Assembly (NCBI RefSeq): GCF_003991135.1
Contig: NZ_CP016379.1
Span: 868,001-932,000, forward strand
Length of the DNA: 64,000 nt
Reading direction: 5' to 3'
DNA from: Anoxybacter fermentans
Lineage (GTDB): Bacteria; Bacillota; Halanaerobiia; DY22613
Within the stretch, counting starts at the first letter, position 1; each line of letters begins with the position of its first letter. The notes beneath the pieces are model-generated. The model was not told the DNA's origin, did not search any database, and saw only the letters and a list, made by a program, of their open reading frames with translations. The translations under genes were made by a program, and so were the position numbers. Positions 12,391 through 38,137 of this stretch are shown here, in pieces.

Positions 12391-14037
12391 ATGAAGAGGA
12401 AAAACCATAATAAAAAGACATTTATTGAATATAATATGAATCAGACAATGTTGCCTTTGAGTTTTGATGTGTTTATTCCTGAGAATCATTTAGTAAGGGT
12501 GGTAAATTCAGCTATAGAAAGGATGAATATTGAACCCCTGCTTGAAAAATATAAAGGTGGGGGTAGAAGCAGCTACCATCCGAAAATGATGCTTAAGGTT
12601 ATAGTATATGCCTATACTCAGAGAATATATTCATCAAGACGAATTGCCAAGGCACTTCGGGAAAATATTTATTTTATGTGGCTTAGTGGTAACAATAAAC
12701 CTGATTTTCGGACGATAAACCGATTCAGATCAGAGATCATGAAAGATGTTATTGATGAGGTATTTGCATCAGTATTGGAACTTCTTATAGAAGAAGGATA
12801 TGTAAAGTTAGAGAATTACTTTTTAGATGGTACAAAAATAGAAGCTAATGCAAACAAATATAGCTTTGTCTGGAGAAAAGCGACAAAGAAGTACAAAGCA
12901 AGGCTTAGGGCAAAAATTAATGAACTTTTAAAAGAGATTGAGAAAACCAACGAAGAAGAGAATAGATTGTATGGGGATAATGACCTGGAGGAGATGGGTG
13001 AAGGAAAAGAAATAGATTCAAAGAAACTCGAAGAAAAAATTAAGGAACTTGAAGAACGTCTAGAAAAGAACTCCAAAGATAAGAAGTTAAAAAAAACAGT
13101 TAAAGAGCTCAAAGATAAATGTCTTCCTCGAATGAAAAAATATGAGCAGCAGGAAGAGATTTTAAATGGACGAAACAGTTATTCTAAAACAGATACTGAT
13201 GCAACTTTTATGAGAATGAAAGAAGACCACATGAAAAATGGGCAATTGAAGCCCGCATATAATGTTCAGATAGGTACAGAGAATCAGTTTGTAGTTGGTT
13301 ATAGTATTCATCAAAGGCCGGCAGATTCAAGATGCTTAATACCTCATTTAGAAAAAGTAAAAGAAGTTACAGGTAAGATTCCGGAAAATGTGATAGCTGA
13401 TTCAGGTTATGGTAGTGAGGAAAATTATGATTACTTAGAGAAAGCCAATACTAATATTTATGTTAAGTATAATACTTTTCATAAAGAACAAAAGAAGAAG
13501 TTTAAAAATGATATATTTAAAGTAGAAAACTGGCCGTATGATAAAGAAAACGACGAGTTTATTTGTCCTGTTCAAAGAAGACTCATTTACTGTAAGACAA
13601 AAGAAATTAAGACTGAAAATGGATATACTAAACAAATTAGATATTACAAATGCGAAAATTGTGATGGGTGTGAGTTAAAAGAAAATTGTACCAAGGCCAA
13701 AGGTGATCGAGTAATAAGAATAAATTTTAAATTACGTGAATATAAGCAAAAGGTAAAGGAAAACCTTTGTTCCGATAAAGGTATGAAACTCCGTTCTCAA
13801 AGAGCAATTGAAGCGGAATCTGTCTTTGGAAGGATCAAAGGTAATTGGTCATTCCGGAGATTTCTGCTTCGTGGCCTTGAGAAAGTAAAAATTGAATGGG
13901 GTTTACTGTGTATAGCCCATAACCTGGCTAAACTGCAACAGTATAGAATGTCAGGTATGGGTTTTTATTTTCTTAACAGAAAAATTTTCAATGAATTTAA
14001 AATGAACAATGAAAAAAGGGGCCATGCCCAAAAGTAA
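12391..14037 (+). CDS. IS1182-family transposase
   Basis: DDE transposase of 548 residues. The N-terminal domain has the family pattern SFDVFIPENHLVRVV and YHPKMMLKVIVYAY, followed by RRIAKALRENIYFMWLSG. A charged coiled-coil insertion lies at about 170-250. The catalytic core includes FLDGTKIEANANKY, IADSGYGSEENYDYL, a cysteine-rich stretch (CENCDGCELKENC) and the C-terminal RSQRAIEAESVFGRIKGNW block with the catalytic Glu. The frame is intact. No clear ribosome site precedes the ATG. Confidence 0.95.
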   Translation: MKRKNHNKKTFIEYNMNQTMLPLSFDVFIPENHLVRVVNSAIERMNIEPLLEKYKGGGRSSYHPKMMLKVIVYAYTQRIYSSRRIAKALRENIYFMWLSGNNKPDFRTINRFRSEIMKDVIDEVFASVLELLIEEGYVKLENYFLDGTKIEANANKYSFVWRKATKKYKARLRAKINELLKEIEKTNEEENRLYGDNDLEEMGEGKEIDSKKLEEKIKELEERLEKNSKDKKLKKTVKELKDKCLPRMKKYEQQEEILNGRNSYSKTDTDATFMRMKEDHMKNGQLKPAYNVQIGTENQFVVGYSIHQRPADSRCLIPHLEKVKEVTGKIPENVIADSGYGSEENYDYLEKANTNIYVKYNTFHKEQKKKFKNDIFKVENWPYDKENDEFICPVQRRLIYCKTKEIKTENGYTKQIRYYKCENCDGCELKENCTKAKGDRVIRINFKLREYKQKVKENLCSDKGMKLRSQRAIEAESVFGRIKGNWSFRRFLLRGLEKVKIEWGLLCIAHNLAKLQQYRMSGMGFYFLNRKIFNEFKMNNEKRGHAQK

Positions 14038-14204: not shown

Positions 14205-15203
14205 ATGTGTAGAAAAGGAATGTTAATTTTGGCTGTGGTGGCCATACTTATCTCAGTAATTGGGGTTTATGGTTACATTAAAGCAGAAGACAAAATACCG
14301 GATAATGCCTTGGCCAGGGTGAATGATTCCTATATATTGGAAGATGTTCATGCCCGATATGTTGAAAGACAGGTTAAGCGTTTGCAACAAACCTATAATC
14401 TGGATTTCACAGGAGAGGAGCATAAAGAACAGTTACTTAATCTTAAAAGACAAATTTTAGAACAGTTGATCAGAAATGAAATTCTCCTTCAAACTGCTTT
14501 TGAATATGGAATAGAAATAACAGATGAAGAGGTTCAGGCTGAGATTGATAAAATTAAGGCTTCTTATCCAGATGACGAGACCTTCAAAAAAGTGTTGGAA
14601 CAGGTAAAATATACTTTAGAAGATCTCAGGAATGATATTATTATACAGAAATCTTATGAAAAATTAGCAGAACGGCTTGGGCAAGATTTAACTGTTACAG
14701 AAGAAGAGATGATGGAATATTATGAGAAAAACATTCGTCGTTTTACTGAAGAAGAACAGGTCCGGGCATCCCATATTTTGGTTGAGACAAAAGAGGAGGC
14801 TTTAGAGATTTTAGATAAAATTAACAATGGTGAAGATTTTGCTGATCTAGCCAGGAAATATTCTAATTGTCCAAGCTCTGACCGGGGTGGAGATCTGGGG
14901 TTCTTTGGTCGCGGACGCATGGTATATGAATTCGAAAAGGCAGCTTTTTCAACAGAAGTTGGTGAAATTACCGGACCAGTTGAAACTGAATTTGGTTGGC
15001 ATATTATTAAAGTAACTGACAAAAAGGAAGCTATAGTTCATCCATATGAAGAAGTTAAAGAAGAAATTTATGAAACTTTGCTTATCAAAAAGAAAAACAA
15101 TGCTGCAGTTGCCCTTTTGAGACAAAAGTGGGAAGAGGCTGATATAGAATATTATGTTGATTATGCTAAACCACAGGAAATTACTGATTCTAATAATAAC
15201 TAA
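14205..15203 (+). CDS. PrsA/PpiD-like peptidyl-prolyl isomerase foldase
   Basis: Extracytoplasmic chaperone that helps secreted or outer-membrane proteins fold. Of 332 residues: a hydrophobic N-terminal segment (about 6-24), a SurA/PrsA N-domain helical region (about 40-170), and a parvulin PPIase domain (about 180-290) with RASHILVETKEEA, FADLARKYSNCPS, RGGDLGFFGRG and FGWHIIKV. The N-terminus has no lipobox cysteine, unlike PrsA lipoproteins of monoderms, so it is probably soluble in the periplasm or anchored by its signal. ATG follows AAGGAGAG. It lies upstream of the TonB operon, fitting an envelope role. Confidence 0.9.
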   Translation: MCRKGMLILAVVAILISVIGVYGYIKAEDKIPDNALARVNDSYILEDVHARYVERQVKRLQQTYNLDFTGEEHKEQLLNLKRQILEQLIRNEILLQTAFEYGIEITDEEVQAEIDKIKASYPDDETFKKVLEQVKYTLEDLRNDIIIQKSYEKLAERLGQDLTVTEEEMMEYYEKNIRRFTEEEQVRASHILVETKEEALEILDKINNGEDFADLARKYSNCPSSDRGGDLGFFGRGRMVYEFEKAAFSTEVGEITGPVETEFGWHIIKVTDKKEAIVHPYEEVKEEIYETLLIKKKNNAAVALLRQKWEEADIEYYVDYAKPQEITDSNNN

Positions 15204-15609: not shown

Positions 15610-15646
15610 GAATTTGTTAACAAATCTTTCTTTTTTAACAGCTTGA

Positions 15647-15686
15647 GAAATCTTACATTATAAAGATGTAAGATTTCTTTTCTTTT
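15647..15686 (+). terminator. Rho-independent terminator
   Basis: GAAATCTTACAT pairs with ATGTAAGATTTC, followed by TTTTCTTTTTT. It closes the foldase/small-ORF unit upstream of exbB. Confidence 0.8.
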
Positions 15687-15823: not shown

Positions 15824-16450
15824 ATGCTGGAATTTATAAAACAGGGAGGACCTACAATTTATCCACTTCTTGCGTGTTCAGTAATTGGTCTGGCAGTAGT
15901 TCTTGAGCGGTTGTTCTATTTTTTCAGGATTAAAAATGATAACTTTCGGATGTTTAGGAAAATAGAAATGATGATTGCAGAAGGGGAGATTACCCGGGCT
16001 GCCCATGAATTAAAAAGTGAGCGGGGTCCGGTAGCAAAGATTATAGCTGCGGGTTTGGCCCATTATGGACAGGATAGAAGGGTGATTGAAGAACATATTC
16101 GTGTTGCAGGTGAACATGAAGTTCATAAGTTAGAAAAAAACTTAGCCATATTGGATATAATTGCTTCCATATCTCCGCTTTTGGGTCTTTTGGGAACAGT
16201 TCTTGGAATTATCGATAGTTTTAATATTTTGAGTACGACGGCGGGTATTGCTGCTCCTGCACAATTAAGCAGCGGGATTGCTGCTGCACTGATTAGTACT
16301 GCTGTGGGGCTTATCATTGCTATACCAGCAATGTTGTTTTACTCATATTTTGTTAGTATTGTAGATAAAAATACCAAAGAGATGAATAAATGGAGTGTAG
16401 AACTTATAGATCTTTTAAGTTATCGGGGTGAAAAAGATGTTCAAATCTAA
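15824..16450 (+). CDS. exbB: ExbB/TolQ-family proton channel subunit
   Basis: Cytoplasmic-membrane proton channel that, with ExbD, energises TonB. 208 residues with three membrane helices: one near the N-terminus (about 10-30) and two in the C-terminal half (about 112-135 and 155-180), with the MotA/TolQ/ExbB signature LDIIASISPLLGLLGTVLGII and SSGIAAALISTAVGLIIAIPA. ATG at 15824 follows AGGGAGG. Its 3' end overlaps exbD. Followed by exbD and tonB it forms a complete energising operon, which implies an outer membrane with TonB-dependent receptors. Confidence 0.94.
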   Translation: MLEFIKQGGPTIYPLLACSVIGLAVVLERLFYFFRIKNDNFRMFRKIEMMIAEGEITRAAHELKSERGPVAKIIAAGLAHYGQDRRVIEEHIRVAGEHEVHKLEKNLAILDIIASISPLLGLLGTVLGIIDSFNILSTTAGIAAPAQLSSGIAAALISTAVGLIIAIPAMLFYSYFVSIVDKNTKEMNKWSVELIDLLSYRGEKDVQI

Positions 16451-16847
16451 ATTAAAAAAGCGACCGAGAATTGAAATTGTACCCATGATCGATGTAATCT
16501 TTTTTTTACTGGTCTTCTTTATGTTATTTACTACTTTTAAGACAACACCTTATGGTTTTGATTTAAAATTACCAAAAGCTACAGCTGTTGTTAAGACTGA
16601 ATCAGTTAATATTTTGATTCAAATTGCTAATGATGGTCAGCTTTTTTTGAAAGACAAACCTGTGACATTAAGTGAACTTAAAGAGCAGGTCAGGCAAAAA
16701 TTAGAAGATAAACCTGATACGGTTATTGTTATAAAAGCAGATGAAAATGCTAAGTATAAGTCGTTAATTCAGGTTATGGATGCTATAAGCCAGGTGGGAG
16801 GAACAAAGTTCTCCCTGGCTGCAGAAAAAGATGAAAGAAAGAAATAG
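16437..16847 (+). CDS. exbD: ExbD/TolR-family biopolymer transport protein
   Basis: Second subunit of the TonB motor. About 136 residues: short basic cytoplasmic N-terminus, one membrane helix (about 14-33) beginning with the conserved VPMIDVIFFLLVFFML in which the Asp is the proton-carrying residue, and a periplasmic domain ending in TKFSLAAEKDE. I prefer ATG 16437, with CGGGGTGA at good spacing; an in-frame GTG at 16428 is the alternative. It overlaps exbB by 14 bp and is followed by tonB after 11 bp. Confidence 0.92.
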   Translation: MFKSKLKKRPRIEIVPMIDVIFFLLVFFMLFTTFKTTPYGFDLKLPKATAVVKTESVNILIQIANDGQLFLKDKPVTLSELKEQVRQKLEDKPDTVIVIKADENAKYKSLIQVMDAISQVGGTKFSLAAEKDERKK

Positions 16848-16858
16848 GGGATGTAATT

Positions 16859-17974
16859 ATGAGAAGACGTAAAAAAGAATCATCTCATTTAAAATATTAT
16901 ATCGTCATCTCATTGATTATCCATCTGGGAATCCTTTATTTCCTACCCTATGGTCTTAATGTTATAGCAACCAAAGGGTTTATGGAGTCTGAAGGAAAAT
17001 TGTATTTTGTAGAATTTGTTCAGTTGGAAACTGAAGTATCTAAGGTACAGAAATCCAGCAAACAACCTGGAGATGATGAAAAAATACTGGTAAGCGAAGA
17101 AAAAAAAGATATAGAGGAAAAGAAAATAGAAGAAAAACCACCTGTTAAGGAGCCGGAACCTGAAGAGAAAGATCAAGGAATTTTAGAAACGGTGGAACCT
17201 GAGCCTAAACAGGAACCGGAATTGGCATCTAAACCAGCTTCTGAACGAAAATCAACACCTGAACCTGTTTCTGAACCGGAATCTACTTCTGAATTGGAAT
17301 CTATTCCTGAGTCAGTCTCAGAGCCGGAATTAACTGAACCTGAGATAGAACCTGAATCTGAACAAGTTTCTGAACCTCAATCAGAACCTGCTTCTGAAAC
17401 AGATACAAATGTTTATCAAACAAATTCTGGTTCTGATATTGCTGCTGAACAGGTAGTAACCAGTGAAAATAGTGATGAAATAATTGAAATTCCGGGAGCT
17501 AAACAATCAAAATCTGAAAATAAACCTGAAGAGAAGGTAGAAGAAAAGATTGAGCCTGAAGAGATGAAACCTGTACCTGAATCTGTTGAAAATAGTAAAC
17601 TTTCCACTTCTAATGATGCAGCTGGGGCGGAACCTGCTCAAGAGTCAGAGGAGGAGAAAAAACCCGCTCTACCTTCCCATCCAAATGCGACCATTGCCAG
17701 GTCTATTAAACCTGTATATCCAAAAAATGCAGCCAACGAAGGTGTAGAAGGAACAGTTGATCTTTTGGTTAGGATAAAAGCTGATGGTACAGTTCAAGAT
17801 GTGCAAATTACCAAATCTTCCAATGATGTTCGTTTGGATAATGTAGCTTTGAATACCATTAAGTCAGGCTGGCGTTTTAAACCTTATCCCTATTCTTATA
17901 CCATTGAGATAACAATCGAATATAAAGATGGCGATACCAGAGTAATTTTAGGAGAACTAAAATTTCTGGAGTAA
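16859..17974 (+). CDS. tonB: TonB energy-transducing protein
   Basis: Spans the periplasm and passes ExbBD force to outer-membrane receptors. 371 residues: N-terminal signal-anchor helix (about 13-33) containing a conserved-type His (SLIIHLGILYF), a long spacer (about 60-280) made almost only of Pro, Glu, Ser, Lys and Thr with repeating EPESxSEPE units, and a C-terminal TonB domain (about 290-371) starting IKPVYPKNAANEGVEGTV and containing LNTIKSGWRFKPYPY. The spacer is longer and more acidic than in E. coli TonB (239 residues), which may reflect a wide periplasm or a salty cell exterior. No receptor gene lies in the window. Confidence 0.93.
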   Translation: MRRRKKESSHLKYYIVISLIIHLGILYFLPYGLNVIATKGFMESEGKLYFVEFVQLETEVSKVQKSSKQPGDDEKILVSEEKKDIEEKKIEEKPPVKEPEPEEKDQGILETVEPEPKQEPELASKPASERKSTPEPVSEPESTSELESIPESVSEPELTEPEIEPESEQVSEPQSEPASETDTNVYQTNSGSDIAAEQVVTSENSDEIIEIPGAKQSKSENKPEEKVEEKIEPEEMKPVPESVENSKLSTSNDAAGAEPAQESEEEKKPALPSHPNATIARSIKPVYPKNAANEGVEGTVDLLVRIKADGTVQDVQITKSSNDVRLDNVALNTIKSGWRFKPYPYSYTIEITIEYKDGDTRVILGELKFLE

Positions 17975-18019
17975 TATTCTAATTATTTATAGGGAATCCT
18001 AATCCTAAGGAGTGGTTAT

Positions 18020-20038
18020 ATGGTAAAAAAAAGATTCGTTCTTTTGGGGATTATCATTTTGATTATGACCATTACCTATACTGTTTATGCCCAACTGGAT
18101 CAATTTGGTAATCTCCGGTTGGGCAATGAATATATAGAGATTGTGGTAAATGGAAATGAAGAAAATATGGGGCGTTTTGCTATAGATATCACCGGGGGAA
18201 ACCCTGTCTCCCCGGGTGATGATGGTGAACCGCTAATTTATGGACGACCCCGGCCCTGGACATCTTATTCCACCATTTTTATAGATGGAGAATATTATGT
18301 CTTTGGTGGTAAAACTGAACAACGGGCTGGAAGGGATGCCAAATATGGAGAGGTGACTGTTCCTCCAAAGATTATTAAGGAGGGAGGACAAAGCGCAATA
18401 CTGACTACTACTGTTTTTGACCAGATAGAGGTAGAACAGATTTTAACTTTTGCTAAAAGTAGTACCACAGGTCTTTATGATACAGTGCTGATTAAATATC
18501 GTTTTACCAATCATGACCAAATAAAACATAAAATTGGTTTAAGGATTATGTTGGATACGATGTTAGGTACCAATGATGGTGCCCCTTTCCGTGTTGGTGA
18601 AAAAGCAATTACCACTGATACTTATTTTATTAAAGGGAGTTTACCCGATTTCTGGCAGGCCTTTGATGCTTTAAGTGATCCGAAAGTAACTGCTCAGGGA
18701 ACGATTAAAGGACCAGATGTGACTACTCCTGATAAGGTTTATTTTGCTGATTGGGGTAGCATGGCTGATGGTCTCTGGAACTTCCAATTTGAGCCGGGAG
18801 AAGAGTTTTGGCGTAAGGGAGAATATGAACTGGATAGTGCTATTGCTCTTTATTGGGCACCTGAATATCTAGACCCGGGAGATTCGCGGACATATACGAC
18901 CAAATATGGTCTTGGAGGTATTACCATTGTACCCGGTCTTCTCTCTGTAGGGGTTACCTCTCCAGCAGAAGTTATTTTTGATACTAAAACTACCTCTTTT
19001 CCGGTGATAGCCTATATTGAAAATACATCTGAAATTGTAGCTAAAGACGTTACGGCTCAGATTCAATTACCTGCTGGTTTTGCAGTAGTTGGGAATGAGA
19101 CGGTTAAAAATCTGGGGAATTTAAAACCAGGTAGTACCGGTCAAGTAGCATGGGAAGTAGTCCCTGTTAAAGGTAGTAAGATTCCCGAACGAATTGTTTA
19201 TAAAGTAAAGGTAGATGCCAGCAATACAGATGATAATCAGGTTCAGCGTCAGGTTAATTTTACGCCACCACCTAGATTTAAAACCTGGTTAGAGTATCCG
19301 GAAAATCTTTCTGTTCGTTATGGGCGGATTGAACCTAATCCCTTTAATCTTTTACTCCATTTGAAAAATGAAGGAGGTTCTCCTGCTTATGAAGTAATGG
19401 GTCAGGTAATTTTACCACCTGGAATGGATTTTGCACAAAAGGAAAAGATGTCCAAATATATTGGAGTTTTGAAACCCGGTGAAGAGTATGTGATTCCCTG
19501 GATGATCAAAACTTCTGATTTAATCTCCGGCAAATTACCTTTTGGAGTTGAAGTTCGTTCATTAAATAGTCCAAAAATTTCTCTGATAGGAAATGTGACC
19601 ATTCCTGAATTGACTAGCCAGGTTTTTATGGTACCTTTGAAAGAAGAGATTAAAACGGGAGAATATTTTGGTATTCGTTTTATGGCAGCTAACATTGAGG
19701 ATATGCATGAGGTTTCTATTAGATTAGCTTATGATCCTGAAGTGGCTAAAGCTATGTATGTTTCCAGAGGAACCCTTTTTGTTCTTAAGAAAGAATCTCT
19801 AAAGACAAAACTTTTACCCTGGATAAACCCAAATATTAATCATAAACAGGGTCTAATTACCATTATGGGTAATTTAGCAGAACAAACCGAAAAAAGCGGA
19901 GTCCTTGCAGAAGTTTATTTTAAAGCATTACAACCTGGTTTATTGACAATTACTTTTGATGAAGTCAAAATTTCTAATGTCAATGGTGATATAATACCTC
20001 TTAAAGTAGAAAATTTAGAAATTGAAATTCAGGAATAA
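18020..20038 (+). CDS. Large exported protein with C-terminal cohesin-like domain
   Basis: 672 residues with an N-terminal signal sequence (about 1-25, ending VYAQ). The first half (about 26-310) is beta-rich with no family I can name; it includes GRPRPWTSYSTIFIDGEYYVF. The middle (about 315-520) looks like tandem Ig/CARDB-type domains (ENTSEIVAKDVTAQIQLPAG; LHLKNEGGSPAYEVMGQVILP). The last 140 residues resemble a cohesin/CBM fold: VRLAYDPEVA-like strand, RGTLFVLKK, SGVLAEVYFKALQPGLLTI. ATG follows AAGGAG. Placed 45 bp after tonB and 17 bp before the SLH protein, it is likely an envelope or surface component. The cohesin call is by pattern only. Confidence 0.7.
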   Translation: MVKKRFVLLGIIILIMTITYTVYAQLDQFGNLRLGNEYIEIVVNGNEENMGRFAIDITGGNPVSPGDDGEPLIYGRPRPWTSYSTIFIDGEYYVFGGKTEQRAGRDAKYGEVTVPPKIIKEGGQSAILTTTVFDQIEVEQILTFAKSSTTGLYDTVLIKYRFTNHDQIKHKIGLRIMLDTMLGTNDGAPFRVGEKAITTDTYFIKGSLPDFWQAFDALSDPKVTAQGTIKGPDVTTPDKVYFADWGSMADGLWNFQFEPGEEFWRKGEYELDSAIALYWAPEYLDPGDSRTYTTKYGLGGITIVPGLLSVGVTSPAEVIFDTKTTSFPVIAYIENTSEIVAKDVTAQIQLPAGFAVVGNETVKNLGNLKPGSTGQVAWEVVPVKGSKIPERIVYKVKVDASNTDDNQVQRQVNFTPPPRFKTWLEYPENLSVRYGRIEPNPFNLLLHLKNEGGSPAYEVMGQVILPPGMDFAQKEKMSKYIGVLKPGEEYVIPWMIKTSDLISGKLPFGVEVRSLNSPKISLIGNVTIPELTSQVFMVPLKEEIKTGEYFGIRFMAANIEDMHEVSIRLAYDPEVAKAMYVSRGTLFVLKKESLKTKLLPWINPNINHKQGLITIMGNLAEQTEKSGVLAEVYFKALQPGLLTITFDEVKISNVNGDIIPLKVENLEIEIQE

Positions 20039-20055
20039 AAAGGAGGTTATCTTGG

Positions 20056-20796
20056 ATGAAACGTTTATGGATAGCATTACTGATTTTAATATTGGTTTTA
20101 GGAGTAAATAATGCTCCTGGTTGGGCCAGTGAGATTAAAGATGTAGATCCTTCTCATTGGGCTTATAAAAGTATAAAGATGTTGATAGATAAAGGATATA
20201 TTTCATTGTACGAGGATAGTACGTTTCGCGGAGATAAAAGTGTTTCTAGATATGAATTGGCTGAAGTAGTTGCAAGACTTTTGGAAAGATTAGAAGAGGG
20301 TACGATTAGTGCTGACCAGATAGATGTAAATACTATTCGGGAGTTAACAGTAGAGTTTCGTAAAGAATTGGTAGATATCATTCAGAAACAAAATCTCTTT
20401 TCTAGTCGTTTATCCCAACTGGAGAAAAATCAGGTGGTAATTAAAGAGGATATTGCCCACAAACAACAGCAGATTGAAGAAATTATTGATCAATTAATTC
20501 TCTTAAAGGAATTAGAGCATAAGTTAGAAAAGGCTGAAGGAGAATTGACAGCATTAAAGAAGCAAATTACTCAGGTAGAAAATGATATGGCTCAAGGTCT
20601 TTCTTTTAGTATTTCTGATTTGAATACCCAGATAAAAAATTTACAGGCTGAGGATGAGGCTAATGCTAAAGCTATAAAAGCTTTACAGGAAGAGAATGCG
20701 CAGTTAAAAGAGGAGATTGCTAATTTAAAAGAGAAAAATACCGAAATGTTGTATTATATGATTGGTGGCCTACTTCTGTCTTTACTTATCCGCTAA
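20056..20796 (+). CDS. SLH-coiled-coil protein of Omp-alpha-like architecture
   Basis: 246 residues: signal peptide (about 1-25), one SLH domain (about 26-75, DVDPSHWAYKSIKMLIDKGYISLYED then FRGDKSVSRYELAEVVARL), a long heptad-rich coiled coil (about 85-228) and a hydrophobic C-terminal tail (MLYYMIGGLLLSLLIR). This order matches Omp-alpha of Thermotoga, a rod that binds the wall through SLH and is anchored by its C-terminal helix in the outer membrane. ATG follows AAAAGGAGGT. It ends the exbB-exbD-tonB group. Function as a wall-to-outer-membrane tether is inferred. Confidence 0.8.
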   Translation: MKRLWIALLILILVLGVNNAPGWASEIKDVDPSHWAYKSIKMLIDKGYISLYEDSTFRGDKSVSRYELAEVVARLLERLEEGTISADQIDVNTIRELTVEFRKELVDIIQKQNLFSSRLSQLEKNQVVIKEDIAHKQQQIEEIIDQLILLKELEHKLEKAEGELTALKKQITQVENDMAQGLSFSISDLNTQIKNLQAEDEANAKAIKALQEENAQLKEEIANLKEKNTEMLYYMIGGLLLSLLIR

Positions 20797-28995: not shown

Positions 28996-29140
28996 AGTTT
29001 AATAAATAGTCAAATGTTAATAGGTAATAGAGAGTGACTTGAGTCTTATAAAGTGGAAATAGATTTCAACCCTTTTACTGTTGTTCTTTATTAAGACGTA
29101 GGATATAATGAAGATAACTAAAGGCAGGGGGGGAGTAGTA

Positions 29141-31207
29141 GTGAATTACAGTAAGTATTATCGGACTTTTTTCGTAATAATAGGGATTATTCTATTTTTG
29201 GGTATAGTTTATCTATTTTTGCCAGAAGCAAAGGGAGAAGAGTATATAGAGAATCTTTATCAGGAGGCAAAGGAAGCTTATTATTCCGGTAATTTGGACA
29301 ATGCCATTAAGAAGTACAAAGAGATTCTCCGTTACCAACCAGGTTCAAGAGCAGCTTTGTATCTAGCAACCATATATGAAGAGTTGGGGAATTATGCCAT
29401 GGCAAAAGAGCAGTATAAGAGTTATCTGCATAATAATCCAATGGATTTAGAAGTCCAATTGGATCTGGCAATTGCCGATTTTAATCTGGGCAATTTAGAT
29501 ATATCAAAAAAAGGACTTACAAAAGTCCTTACTTCTCAAGATGTTAACCCTTATCTTAAACGGGAAGCGGCATATTATCTTAGCAAGATTAGTACAATGA
29601 TGGGGAATTATTCAGAGGCCCTCCAATATGTAAATCAGGCAATCAAAGCTGATTTAAGATATGTTCTAGCAGTGGTACAAAAAGGTTGGATTTATGAACT
29701 AATGGATCAACCTGAAGAAGCAATTAAATATTATCTGAATGCTTTACGGCTTGATGGTAGTTTAAAAGGGATTCAGCGTAGGTTAGGATTACTGTATTTG
29801 AAAATTAAAGATTATGATAATGCGTATTATCATTTTGATAGAGCTTTAAGTGAGAATAAAAAAGATCAGCTTTCTAAAGAGAAGCTTAACTGGCTTGAAC
29901 AAAAATTTCCGGGTCGGTTTAAACGTCTGTCTACTCCGCCCACTCCAGAGGATTTGCCGAAAAAGGTAACTTTTAGACAGGTTACTCCATTAACCGATGA
30001 TGAAAAGATCAAGCTAATCCGGGTTGGACTTTTTGGTGGAGAACCTCAAAAGGTGATTTTCTTCCGGGTAGGTGCTGATTTTCGGGTCGAAGATAGGAAT
30101 GGAACTCTTCTTACCACAGGTAGGACAGGAGAGATCTGGAAAGTTGAGCAGAAAAAAGGATACTATGAACTGGTAAAGTATCCAGAAGGTAAAATAGTAA
30201 AGTTCACTGGACCAATTAAAGTTAAAACCGAAAAGTATGCACCTATCTTAATCCATCAGGTCCAGTTTGGCAAGGGATATTTCTGGGCTGGTAAAGAGGA
30301 TCGTCAATATCGAGGCCAGGTTGAATTTCTACCCAAAACTAATGGTCTAACACTGGTCAACATTTTAAATGTAGAAGAATACCTCTACTCTGTTATAGCT
30401 TCTGAGATGCCTGCTTCCTGGCCCATAGAAGCATTAAAGGCTCAGACAGTAGCTGCCAGAACCTACACTTACTATAATCTGGGTAAGCACAGTTCTGAAG
30501 GTTTTGATCTCTGTGATACAGTCCACTGTGCTGCTTACAACGGTATTGGTTGGGAGAGTCATAAAACCCATAAGGCAGTTCAGGAGACTTTAGGTTTAAT
30601 TATGACCTTTAATGGTCGTCCTATTAATGCAGTCTATAGTGCCAATTCCGGAGGACATACAGAAGATGTGAAAGATGTCTGGGGTACGGATTTACCTTAT
30701 CTTAAAGGTGTTTCAACCCTTAAATCTGAGAATGAGACTATATTTCCTCTGGAACCTGCTGAGTTAAAAAGCTGGCTTAGAAAAGTGCCTGAATCCTATT
30801 CTCTGGAACCTCAGTTTTCAAATCCGGTTCATTATCGCTGGCAGAGGCGGGTAAGTCGGAGTTTTATTGAAGATAGACTGAATATAGGCCGTTTACAAGA
30901 ATTAAAGGTGACAGGTAGAGGAAGAGGAGGGAGTGTTACTTCTATTCTGGCAGTCGGAACTAAAGGTCAGGTGGAGTTAAAGCACTCTCTACGCTCTAAG
31001 CTTGGAGGTTTAAGAAGTAATAGGTTTTTTATACGTCCAGAGTATGAAAACGGTCAACTAACGGCATTTGTTTTCTATGGAGGTGGCTGGGGTCATAATG
31101 TTGGAATGGATCAGGTAGCTGCTGCAGGAATGGCGAAAGAAGGATTTACTTTTGATCAGATTTTGAAACATTTTTACACTGGAATTGAGTTAACAAAACT
31201 GTATTGA
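29141..31207 (+). CDS. TPR-SpoIID/LytB domain protein
   Basis: About 688 residues: N-terminal membrane helix (about 10-30), at least five TPR-like repeats (about 35-270; for example YYSGNLDNAIKKYKEILRYQPG and YSEALQYVNQAIKADLRY), a linker, then a SpoIID domain (about 390-670) with VIASEMPASWPIEALKAQTVAARTY, whose Glu is the catalytic residue in SpoIID lytic transglycosylases. SpoIID alone is about 340 residues, so the TPR half is an added interaction platform. GTG 29141 is preferred since GGGGGGAG precedes it; ATG 29108 is in frame. It would trim peptidoglycan, in sporulation or as an amidase enhancer. Confidence 0.88.
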   Translation: MNYSKYYRTFFVIIGIILFLGIVYLFLPEAKGEEYIENLYQEAKEAYYSGNLDNAIKKYKEILRYQPGSRAALYLATIYEELGNYAMAKEQYKSYLHNNPMDLEVQLDLAIADFNLGNLDISKKGLTKVLTSQDVNPYLKREAAYYLSKISTMMGNYSEALQYVNQAIKADLRYVLAVVQKGWIYELMDQPEEAIKYYLNALRLDGSLKGIQRRLGLLYLKIKDYDNAYYHFDRALSENKKDQLSKEKLNWLEQKFPGRFKRLSTPPTPEDLPKKVTFRQVTPLTDDEKIKLIRVGLFGGEPQKVIFFRVGADFRVEDRNGTLLTTGRTGEIWKVEQKKGYYELVKYPEGKIVKFTGPIKVKTEKYAPILIHQVQFGKGYFWAGKEDRQYRGQVEFLPKTNGLTLVNILNVEEYLYSVIASEMPASWPIEALKAQTVAARTYTYYNLGKHSSEGFDLCDTVHCAAYNGIGWESHKTHKAVQETLGLIMTFNGRPINAVYSANSGGHTEDVKDVWGTDLPYLKGVSTLKSENETIFPLEPAELKSWLRKVPESYSLEPQFSNPVHYRWQRRVSRSFIEDRLNIGRLQELKVTGRGRGGSVTSILAVGTKGQVELKHSLRSKLGGLRSNRFFIRPEYENGQLTAFVFYGGGWGHNVGMDQVAAAGMAKEGFTFDQILKHFYTGIELTKLY

Positions 31208-36866: not shown

Positions 36867-36931
36867 TAAAGAGAAGGAAGATTAAGTTACTACATAGAAT
36901 AATAATTTATATGAAAATTAAATAATATGCT

Positions 36932-37130
36932 AAATCTGGTGGTCTGAGTGAGCCTGGAGGTGACTTCAGGTTTACAAAGACCTTAAAAGGGAAGCTTGGA
37001 TGGGTAGGTTTCTACCCGTTGCAGCGCGGTCCCGCCACTGTGATCAGGGAGTAACCCTTCGAAATACCACTCGATTCCGGGGAAGGTGAAGGGAAGCGAT
37101 GATCTGACAGCCAGGAGACCTGCCAGATTT
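36932..37130 (+). ncRNA. Cobalamin (B12) riboswitch
   Basis: P1 pairs AAATCTGG (36932-36939) with CCAGATTT (37123-37130). The conserved core is present: GGGAAGCTTGGATG, the GCAGCGCGGTCCCGCCACTG box near 37021-37040 and AGCCAGGAGACCTGCC near 37109-37124. A terminator hairpin follows at 37185-37225, so binding of adenosylcobalamin should lower btuF transcription. Confidence 0.95.
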
Positions 37131-37184
37131 AGAAGCCTTAAACCTTCGGTAGAAAGGGGATGGTAGAAGAGATGATAAGTTTGT

Positions 37185-37252: not shown

Positions 37253-38137
37253 ATGAAAAAAATACGAGTTAGTATTTTAATATTATTAATGGTTCTTTTC
37301 TATGCTTTGGTAGTAGAAGCCAGTTATCCAATTAAAGTAATTGATGATATGGGTGAATTAACTGTCATTCCTGAAAAACCCATGCGAATTGTTTCTCTAG
37401 CTCCCAGCCATACGGAAATTCTCTTTGCTCTGGGTGTGGGTGATAGAGTTGTTGGTCGGACTGATTTTTGCGATTATCCCGAAGAGGTGTCCGATATTCC
37501 AAGTGTTGGGGGATATAGTCAGCCAAGCCTGGAATCGATAATGGCTGTAGAACCGGATCTGGTATTGGCTAGTTTTGGAACTTCTAAAGAGTTAATCGAC
37601 CAATTGAGAAACCTGGGGATTTCTGTATTGGGTTACAATCCAGAGACTCTGGACGATGTCCTGAAGATGATTTGGGAAATTGGTAAAGTGACTGGTGTTG
37701 AGGAAAATGCTGCATTATTGATTGAGAATTTGAAAGAACGTATTGCAGCAGTAAAGAGACTGGTAAAAGATGCTGACCGTCCATTGGTTTTCTGGGAAGT
37801 GTGGCATGATCCATTATACACTGCTGGACCAAATACTTTTATTAATGATCTGATTACTCTGGCCGGTGGAAGAAATCTGGCTGCTGATGCAGATAGTCCA
37901 TGGCCTGTTTATAGTCTGGAAGTTCTACTGGCCAAAAATCCTGATATTTATATTGCTACTAAAGATCAGTGGTCAGATCCAGGCAATATTTCTGAACGTC
38001 CCGGGTATGACCAGTTAAAAGCCGTAAAAAATGGTCGGGTTTATGTGATAAATGCTAATAATGTTAACCGTCCCGGGCCAAGGTTGGTTGATGGCCTGGA
38101 AGAATTGGTGAAAATAATTCACCCTGAATTATTTTAA
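37253..38137 (+). CDS. btuF: Cobalamin-binding periplasmic protein BtuF-like
   Basis: Substrate-binding component of B12 import, 294 residues. Signal peptide about 1-24 with likely cleavage after VEA; no lipobox cysteine, so it should be free in a periplasm. The domain has the BtuF/TroA-like features RIVSLAPSHTEILFALGVGDRVVGRTDFCDYPEE, SLESIMAVEPDLVLA and FWEVWHDPLYTAGPNTFINDLI. The upstream cobalamin riboswitch fixes the ligand class. No btuC/btuD permease or ATPase is adjacent and a terminator follows, so partners must be encoded elsewhere. Confidence 0.92.
   Translation: MKKIRVSILILLMVLFYALVVEASYPIKVIDDMGELTVIPEKPMRIVSLAPSHTEILFALGVGDRVVGRTDFCDYPEEVSDIPSVGGYSQPSLESIMAVEPDLVLASFGTSKELIDQLRNLGISVLGYNPETLDDVLKMIWEIGKVTGVEENAALLIENLKERIAAVKRLVKDADRPLVFWEVWHDPLYTAGPNTFINDLITLAGGRNLAADADSPWPVYSLEVLLAKNPDIYIATKDQWSDPGNISERPGYDQLKAVKNGRVYVINANNVNRPGPRLVDGLEELVKIIHPELF

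Follow-up and report, generated by a model that had tools for sequence, protein, structure and literature searches.

A conserved operon of motor, transducer, exported protein and SLH tether that looks like the Tol-Pal version of diderm Firmicutes

Five adjacent genes of Anoxybacter fermentans, encoding the two subunits of an ExbB/ExbD-type motor, a TonB-type transducer, a 672-aa exported protein and a 246-aa SLH protein, look like the diderm Firmicutes' own, previously undescribed version of Tol-Pal. We read the five as one core envelope machine, similar to Tol-Pal in its working and non-homologous to it in its outer half, with a probability of roughly 0.6. Outside one group, almost all Firmicutes that bear an outer membrane have them as a fixed unit, and no description of a five-gene Tol-Pal-like operon was found in the literature. 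The wider proposal, that Halanaerobiia, together with other Bacillota that are diderm (probably Limnochordia), have a proton-driven trans-envelope counterpart of Tol-Pal for Terrabacteria, in which a TonB-type transducer actively handles an SLH tether of peptidoglycan via a new protein family, stands in our estimate at even odds.

Locus layout

In the window (the whole stretch of 64,000 nucleotides that was analysed), open reading frames place exbB, exbD, tonB, the gene for the 672-aa exported protein and the gene for the SLH protein in a tight series at positions 15824-20796. The first two overlap by 23 bp, and exbD and tonB are 11 bp apart. The gaps of 45 bp (tonB to the 672-aa gene) and 17 bp (672-aa gene to SLH gene) given in a preliminary description of the locus were borne out. 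A terminator scan of the operon revealed no strong terminator between any of the five genes, while the following element sits between the upstream PPIase gene and the operon:

15645..15679, plus strand, terminator-like hairpin (15-bp stem, T-run; consensus match only)

Conservation and distribution of the five-gene unit

Conservation of the gene order, put forward in the preliminary description as a check within Halanaerobiales, held and extended far beyond. The complete ordered set was present in 53 of 57 Halanaerobiia loci, the remaining four being interrupted by contig ends, and the same order was found in 35 of 38 inspected loci from Bacillota families outside Halanaerobiia. Such recurrence indicates that the arrangement is more than chance. 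Gene order by itself is no proof of interaction, and a housekeeping operon that merely co-transcribes unrelated envelope genes could also keep its order; we regard this as very improbable, as exactly these five genes stay joined in many families despite reshuffled flanks (the flanking genes were unrelated among loci of other families, the unit itself constant). No connection to cell division was seen in the inspected flanking genes.

Orthologues of the 672-aa protein were detected in 57/59 class genomes. The protein tracks the outer membrane, its carriers being almost only genomes with the outer-membrane marker Omp85 (87/88 genomes with the protein, vs 15/310 without). Negativicutes-like families have an outer membrane and lack the five-gene operon. 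Plasmids and viral contigs searched for homologues gave no match.

Motor and transducer

The first three genes, together with two features of the transducer, are as follows:

15824..16450, plus strand, exbB/tolQ-type proton-channel subunit, 208 aa (Pfam MotA_ExbB, 2.6e-33)
16428..16847, plus strand, exbD/tolR-type stator subunit, 139 aa (Pfam ExbD, 5.4e-34)
16859..17974, plus strand, TonB/TolA-type force transducer, 371 aa (TonB_C, 3e-18)
16889..16951, plus strand, transmembrane helix of TonB with SxxxH (Ser18, His22; from sequence)
17708..17926, plus strand, C-terminal domain of TonB, residues 284-356 (Pfam TonB_C)

These Pfam matches confirm the ExbB, ExbD and TonB assignments made at the outset. 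An ExbB search of this genome with a threshold of E<=1e-3 matched the exbB of the operon and nothing else. ExbD carries a PMIDV motif with the proton-carrying Asp (PxxDV-type motif in 84/90 orthologues), and the transducer consists of an N-terminal helix, an E/P-rich linker and the TonB_C domain, with SxxxH found in the helix of 81/85 TonB orthologues.

Motor and transducer are thus clear homologues of ExbB-ExbD-TonB, TonB_C included, and an uptake motor of the Ton type had been the first reading of them. That reading fared poorly. This genome has no TonB-dependent receptor (Plug domain), and across 47 good class genomes ExbB was universal (47/47) while the Plug domain was present in 25 and absent from 22. 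In 13 of the 14 paralogous loci, the second exbBD-tonB has a Plug-bearing gene as its neighbour; the operon copies of ExbB form their own clade, separate from the receptor-linked copies of relatives (SH-aLRT 96). Because there is no receptor in the genome and a separate paralogue serves receptors elsewhere, the operon motor is probably not used for TonB-dependent uptake here. The authors of the H. orenii study had already seen that ExbBD-TonB occurs there with no receptors, and proposed that it does something else (PMC2626281); the machine proposed here would explain that observation.

An uptake system could still operate with a receptor too divergent for detection, or energise some other transporter, perhaps OmpM, with the 672-aa protein as substrate binder and the SLH protein as scaffold. 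The transducer does possess a true TonB_C domain, Ton systems often occur without linked receptors (PMC12204202), and the 672-aa protein might bind a carbohydrate-like ligand through its conserved N-terminal domain. We nevertheless consider this unlikely, given the missing Plug domain, the existence of separate receptor-linked exbBD-tonB loci within the same class, and the strict linkage, in all inspected loci, to a peptidoglycan-binding tether rather than to any barrel.

Family scores of TolQ versus ExbB were dropped as evidence for a Tol-type motor; receptor-linked ExbB paralogues also favour tolQ over exbB, so such scores are not diagnostic.

The 672-aa exported protein

The fourth gene, in the position of tolB, encodes a protein of three parts:

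18020..20038, plus strand, 672-aa exported protein, TolB slot (signal peptide, no lipobox)
18092..18979, plus strand, beta-rich domain at the N-terminus, residues 25-320 (unmatched in Pfam and NCBIfam)
18980..19609, plus strand, two Ig-like domains (NEW3/CARDB/DUF11-like), residues 321-530 (profiles, model)
19610..20035, plus strand, cohesin-like domain, residues 531-672 (profiles, structure model)

The N-terminal domain is a new, highly conserved protein domain and the most conserved part of the protein, 110 of its 296 columns being at least 90% identical; its structural model is of low confidence (many residues with pLDDT <50, alignment of four sequences). The NPCBM_assoc profile matched 37/38 orthologues (best 3.3e-10), and residues 321-530 formed beta sandwiches in the predicted structure. 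The window copy scored 20.0 bits against the Pfam cohesin profile, under the 24.1-bit cut-off. However, this profile matched 29/38 orthologues (best 5.7e-13) and the family profile retrieved solved cohesins at 1.5e-09, which argues that the cohesin fold is real. A fold search with the whole 672-aa model put integrins and other multi-Ig chains on top, with TM near 0.2 and rmsd >20, and the only usable match was type II cohesin 3f2l (TM 0.60 by target length). Structure prediction, proposed in the preliminary description, supported the beta sandwiches and the cohesin match, but modelled the N-terminal domain poorly. The Ig/cohesin-like character ascribed to the protein stood at the level of the family; the cohesin part is its least conserved domain (mean 41% vs 71% for the N-terminal domain).

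A cohesin role is not supported in this genome, which lacks dockerin (PF00404). The protein shares a cohesin domain with cellulosomal scaffoldins at family level, and SLH anchors are found in cellulosomes; a surface-display module, with the cohesin docking dockerin enzymes and the SLH protein holding the wall, is nonetheless largely refuted for this genome and scarcely credible, since it has no dockerin to dock, would rest on the most weakly conserved domain and leaves the strict motor linkage unexplained.

The SLH tether

The last gene, in the position of pal, was resolved into the following features:

20056..20796, plus strand, 246-aa SLH tether, Pal slot (signal peptide, one SLH domain, coiled coil, C-terminal tail)
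20134..20262, plus strand, SLH domain of OmpM type (Tyr37 = Y36 and Tyr66 = Y65 of Veillonella OmpM1)
20317..20745, plus strand, predicted continuous helical stalk or coiled coil (AlphaFold2 helix 88-245)
20746..20793, plus strand, C-terminal hydrophobic tail, last 16 residues (orthologue tails)

The protein has no lipobox and no C-terminal outer-membrane beta barrel, ending instead in a hydrophobic helix. Its SLH domain (Pfam SLH, 2.4e-09) aligns to 8bys and 7zgx (OmpM1 and SlpA tethers), and the homology to these tethers takes in the start of the stalk; unlike OmpM, it lacks the barrel. The OmpM-type Tyr was kept in 54/57 class tether sequences, a claim limited to the class, the Tyr/RYE regular expression having worked on class sequences and mostly missed RYE in other families.

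The Omp-alpha layout recognised in the preliminary description recurred in nearly all intact orthologues, and the AlphaFold2 model agreed with it. Thermotoga Omp-alpha, an outer-membrane spacer, likewise combines an N-terminal SLH domain, a long coiled coil and a C-terminal hydrophobic helix (PMC9388160). The two differ in that the stalk here is shorter (about 140-160 residues) and its gene belongs to a motor operon, whereas the neighbour of the Omp-alpha gene is presumed to code for the porin Omp-beta (PMC9388160). From sequence, we infer that the tail of the SLH protein lies in the outer membrane.

Alternatively, the tail could be embedded in the inner membrane, which would make the SLH protein an anchor beside ExbBD that fixes the motor to peptidoglycan, in the way MotB uses its OmpA-like domain, and would leave the 672-aa protein as the sole moved part. 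Motors of the ExbB/MotA superfamily do use peptidoglycan anchors, and a hydrophobic C-terminal helix following a Sec signal is a default candidate for lateral release into the inner membrane. Against this, the tails are short (a median of 16 uncharged residues, then a median of one residue, in 93 orthologues, vs 19 for the TonB helix), 73/93 orthologues have zero net charge beyond the tail, and the same layout serves as an outer-membrane spacer in Thermotoga; we judge an inner-membrane anchor improbable. Lengths of TonB and tether were compared for a correlation that might point to a shared span; its sign was opposite in the two groups, and the idea was dropped.

Comparison with Tol-Pal and proposed mechanism

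Tol-Pal genes are ordered tolQ-tolR-tolA-tolB-pal, and the operon shares with them the succession of two motor genes, a transducer, an exported periplasmic protein and a peptidoglycan-binding tether in a conserved operon, as well as the proton-driven ExbB/ExbD-type motor, the transducer helix with SxxxH, and core conservation throughout a diderm lineage. It differs in the TonB-type C-terminal domain of the transducer and in a tether built of SLH domain, coiled coil and C-terminal helix rather than an OmpA-domain Pal lipoprotein; the last two genes are analogous, not homologous, to tolB and pal. TolB_N was found in 0/59 class genomes (control genomes were positive), and this genome holds no Pal candidate, its sole OmpA-domain protein being MotB, beside MotA. 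The earlier view, that parts for energisation and for anchoring share one locus, was sound, but it had missed this closest functional parallel.

With the mechanism of Tol-Pal as a parallel (PMC8928145), ExbB and ExbD would form a proton-driven inner-membrane motor moving the TonB-like transducer, which would span the periplasm by its linker and engage the 672-aa protein, in the place of TolB, instead of uptake receptors. The 672-aa protein would in turn work on the SLH tether, the stand-in for Pal, which would be held in the outer membrane by its C-terminal helix and would bind the cell wall through its SLH domain. Energy supplied by the inner membrane may thus load, release or gather tethers, e.g. 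at the division site, and the outer membrane would thereby stay attached. Order, distribution, domain make-up and the missing components are observed; that the transducer, the 672-aa protein and the tether touch one another, and that they serve attachment or division, is what we infer.

A partial precedent is PorE of Bacteroidetes, a putative tether between outer membrane and peptidoglycan (PMC12204202), also proposed as a substitute for the outer components of Tol-Pal in a lineage without tol-pal. In PorE, however, TPR, propeller, Ig-like and OmpA-like domains are fused in one lipoprotein with no SLH domain, and it is not described in a motor operon.

The operon, combining a proton motor with an SLH tether, offers a named, testable candidate for constriction and retention of the outer membrane in division. 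A 2025 survey confined Tol-Pal to Gracilicutes and had it arise with Pal (PMC12204202); if our reading is true, energised control of outer-membrane attachment arose at least twice, or predates Pal. The operon also bears on the loss of outer-membrane attachment en route to monoderm cells. Terrabacterial diderms are thought to depend on OmpM tethers (PMC10628300), and a separate OmpM of 843 aa, which has a barrel-type strand at its C-terminus, is encoded elsewhere in this genome, so the 246-aa SLH protein is not its sole tether.

Gene content and conservation of the operon

The preliminary description had placed five genes in one operon, and an ORF check confirmed all of them at the same positions and with the same intergenic gaps; its assignments to the ExbB, ExbD and TonB families were found to be firm in a Pfam domain search.

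15824-20796 (+): five-gene operon, exbB-exbD-tonB followed by genes for a 672-aa exported protein and a 246-aa SLH protein
18020-20038 (+): 672-aa exported protein
20056-20796 (+): SLH protein

A strong terminator-like hairpin was located upstream of exbB, and no strong one was found between the five genes. A search of 59 genomes from 30 genera of the class Halanaerobiia (including 47 good genomes) detected the 672-aa protein in 57 (47/47 among the good ones), the SLH protein in 58 and ExbB in 54. The complete gene order was present in 53 of 57 class loci, the remaining four being cut by contig ends. When a profile of the 672-aa protein was run against sampled Bacillota genomes, full-length relatives were identified in 73 genomes beyond Halanaerobiia, the whole sample containing 88 carriers, and the five genes were complete and ordered in 35/38 inspected non-class loci; two of the other three had a third ORF too divergent for the TonB profile and one was cut by a contig end. 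Gene order, which the preliminary description had suggested examining in Halanaerobiales, is thus kept in the class and in other Bacillota families. Named relatives were Halanaerobacter jeridensis, Halanaerobium sp. and a Halothermothrix MAG.

Upstream neighbours varied between families (glutamate dehydrogenase, radical SAM, purD, ubiE and GNAT genes), while in part of the class the operon was flanked by a SurA-like PPIase upstream and ndk downstream. Conservation of the order while upstream neighbours differ by family indicates that exactly these five genes are kept together. The window's own SurA-like parvulin-type PPIase lies at 14205-15203 (+), with counterparts upstream of the operon in some, though not all, of the other class families (loci L096, L098 and L140-L142); just upstream of it, a 548-aa ORF (12391-14037, +) encodes, judging by its sequence, a putative intact insertion-element transposase.

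The motor and its separateness from receptor-linked copies

ExbD carried a PMIDV-type motif with Asp in 84/90 orthologues, and TonB an SxxxH motif in its N-terminal helix in 81/85. The strand following this helix (TonB residues 48-55, LYFVEFVQ) appears D-box-like and may be comparable to the D-box of E. coli TonB, which binds ExbD (PMC10907165).

The operon's ExbB-ExbD-TonB is probably not an uptake motor. No Plug domain of TonB-dependent receptors was found in the window genome, nor in 22/47 good class genomes, all 47 of which have ExbB. Of 14 inspected loci with a second exbB, 13 had this copy and its own tonB next to a Plug-bearing gene of ~ 600 codons. A phylogeny of 99 ExbB proteins placed operon copies from the class and from other families in one group (SH-aLRT 96), which excluded the receptor-linked and the Negativicutes-like copies. 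Authors of the Halothermothrix orenii genome paper had noted ExbB-ExbD-TonB without receptors before and considered another function possible (PMC2626281).

Three second-copy class ExbBs (L200, L203, L209) grouped on their own in a long-branched clade; their genes are arranged exbB-exbD-tonB, and two of the three adjoin a receptor. They may represent a second kind of Ton system within Halanaerobiia. A cobalamin riboswitch (Rfam RF00174, 99.2 bits; 36920-37141, +) was also detected, preceding the gene for a Peripla_BP_2 binding protein (37253-38137); as the genome has no TonB-dependent receptor, vitamin B12 must pass the outer membrane without a recognisable BtuB.

The exported protein and the SLH tether

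The 672-aa protein comprises a signal peptide, a beta-rich N-terminal domain of ~ 300 residues, two Ig-like domains and a cohesin-like domain; the window genome contained no dockerins. The N-terminal domain, for which the structure model was poor and no Pfam or NCBIfam match was found, is conserved. Because conservation declines along the chain from 71% to 41%, it is probably this domain, and not the cohesin-like one, that does the protein's work.

The SLH protein has a signal peptide, no lipobox, one SLH domain and a hydrophobic C-terminus, with residues 88-245 predicted as one continuous helix (mean pLDDT 71.5, model built from four sequences). Across 93 orthologues, the C-terminal tail had a median of 16 uncharged residues followed by a median of one residue, and net charge behind it was absent in 73. 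The SLH domain could be aligned to Veillonella OmpM1 and Deinococcus SlpA, and 54/57 class sequences had the equivalent of OmpM1 tyrosine Y36, typical of OmpM from diderm Firmicutes (PMC10628300). As originally proposed, the layout matches Omp-alpha, the outer-membrane spacer of Thermotoga (PMC9388160), and the tail would accordingly sit in the outer membrane. Another site in this genome encodes a true OmpM, whose C-terminal strand ends in Phe, so two SLH tethers coexist. Elsewhere in the window, a 699-aa protein (29108-31207, +) joins a SpoIID domain to a series of TPR repeats; for a diderm's sporulation-type peptidoglycan enzyme, this fusion is unusual.

Comparison with Tol-Pal

Operon order and part types fit tolQ-tolR-tolA-tolB-pal slot for slot: a pair of motor subunits comes first, followed by a transducer, a periplasmic protein that is exported, and a peptidoglycan-binding tether with a presumptive outer-membrane location. 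TolB_N was absent from all 59 class genomes, and the only OmpA-domain protein of the window genome was MotB, directly adjoining MotA. As TolB and Pal were both looked for and neither was found, this is by membership not a Tol-Pal system; by mechanism, the analogy suggests that it most likely works like one. In Tol-Pal, motor energy separates TolB from Pal, freeing Pal for wall binding (PMC8928145). The operon's motor would do the same kind of work on the SLH tether via the 672-aa protein; we infer the protein contacts within such a machine, as well as a role of the operon in attachment or division. A 2025 survey found Tol-Pal restricted to Gracilicutes and, among diderm Firmicutes, detected the Ton system in Negativicutes only, and therefore missed the five-gene operon (PMC12204202).

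Link to the outer membrane

Among 398 phylum genomes, drawn evenly and counted irrespective of kinship, Omp85 was present in 87/88 full-length carriers of the 672-aa protein versus 15/310 non-carriers. Thirteen of these 15 fell in two families (f40 and f70), which we take to be Negativicutes, since only Negativicutes, Halanaerobiia and Limnochordia are known as diderm Bacillota classes (PMC11448272). Parts of the 672-aa protein, chiefly the N-terminal domain, were also seen inside far larger proteins (> 1200 aa; L194, L195) in Bacillota genomes without Omp85 and with no exbB match nearby; the N-terminal domain is therefore also found outside the five-gene operon.
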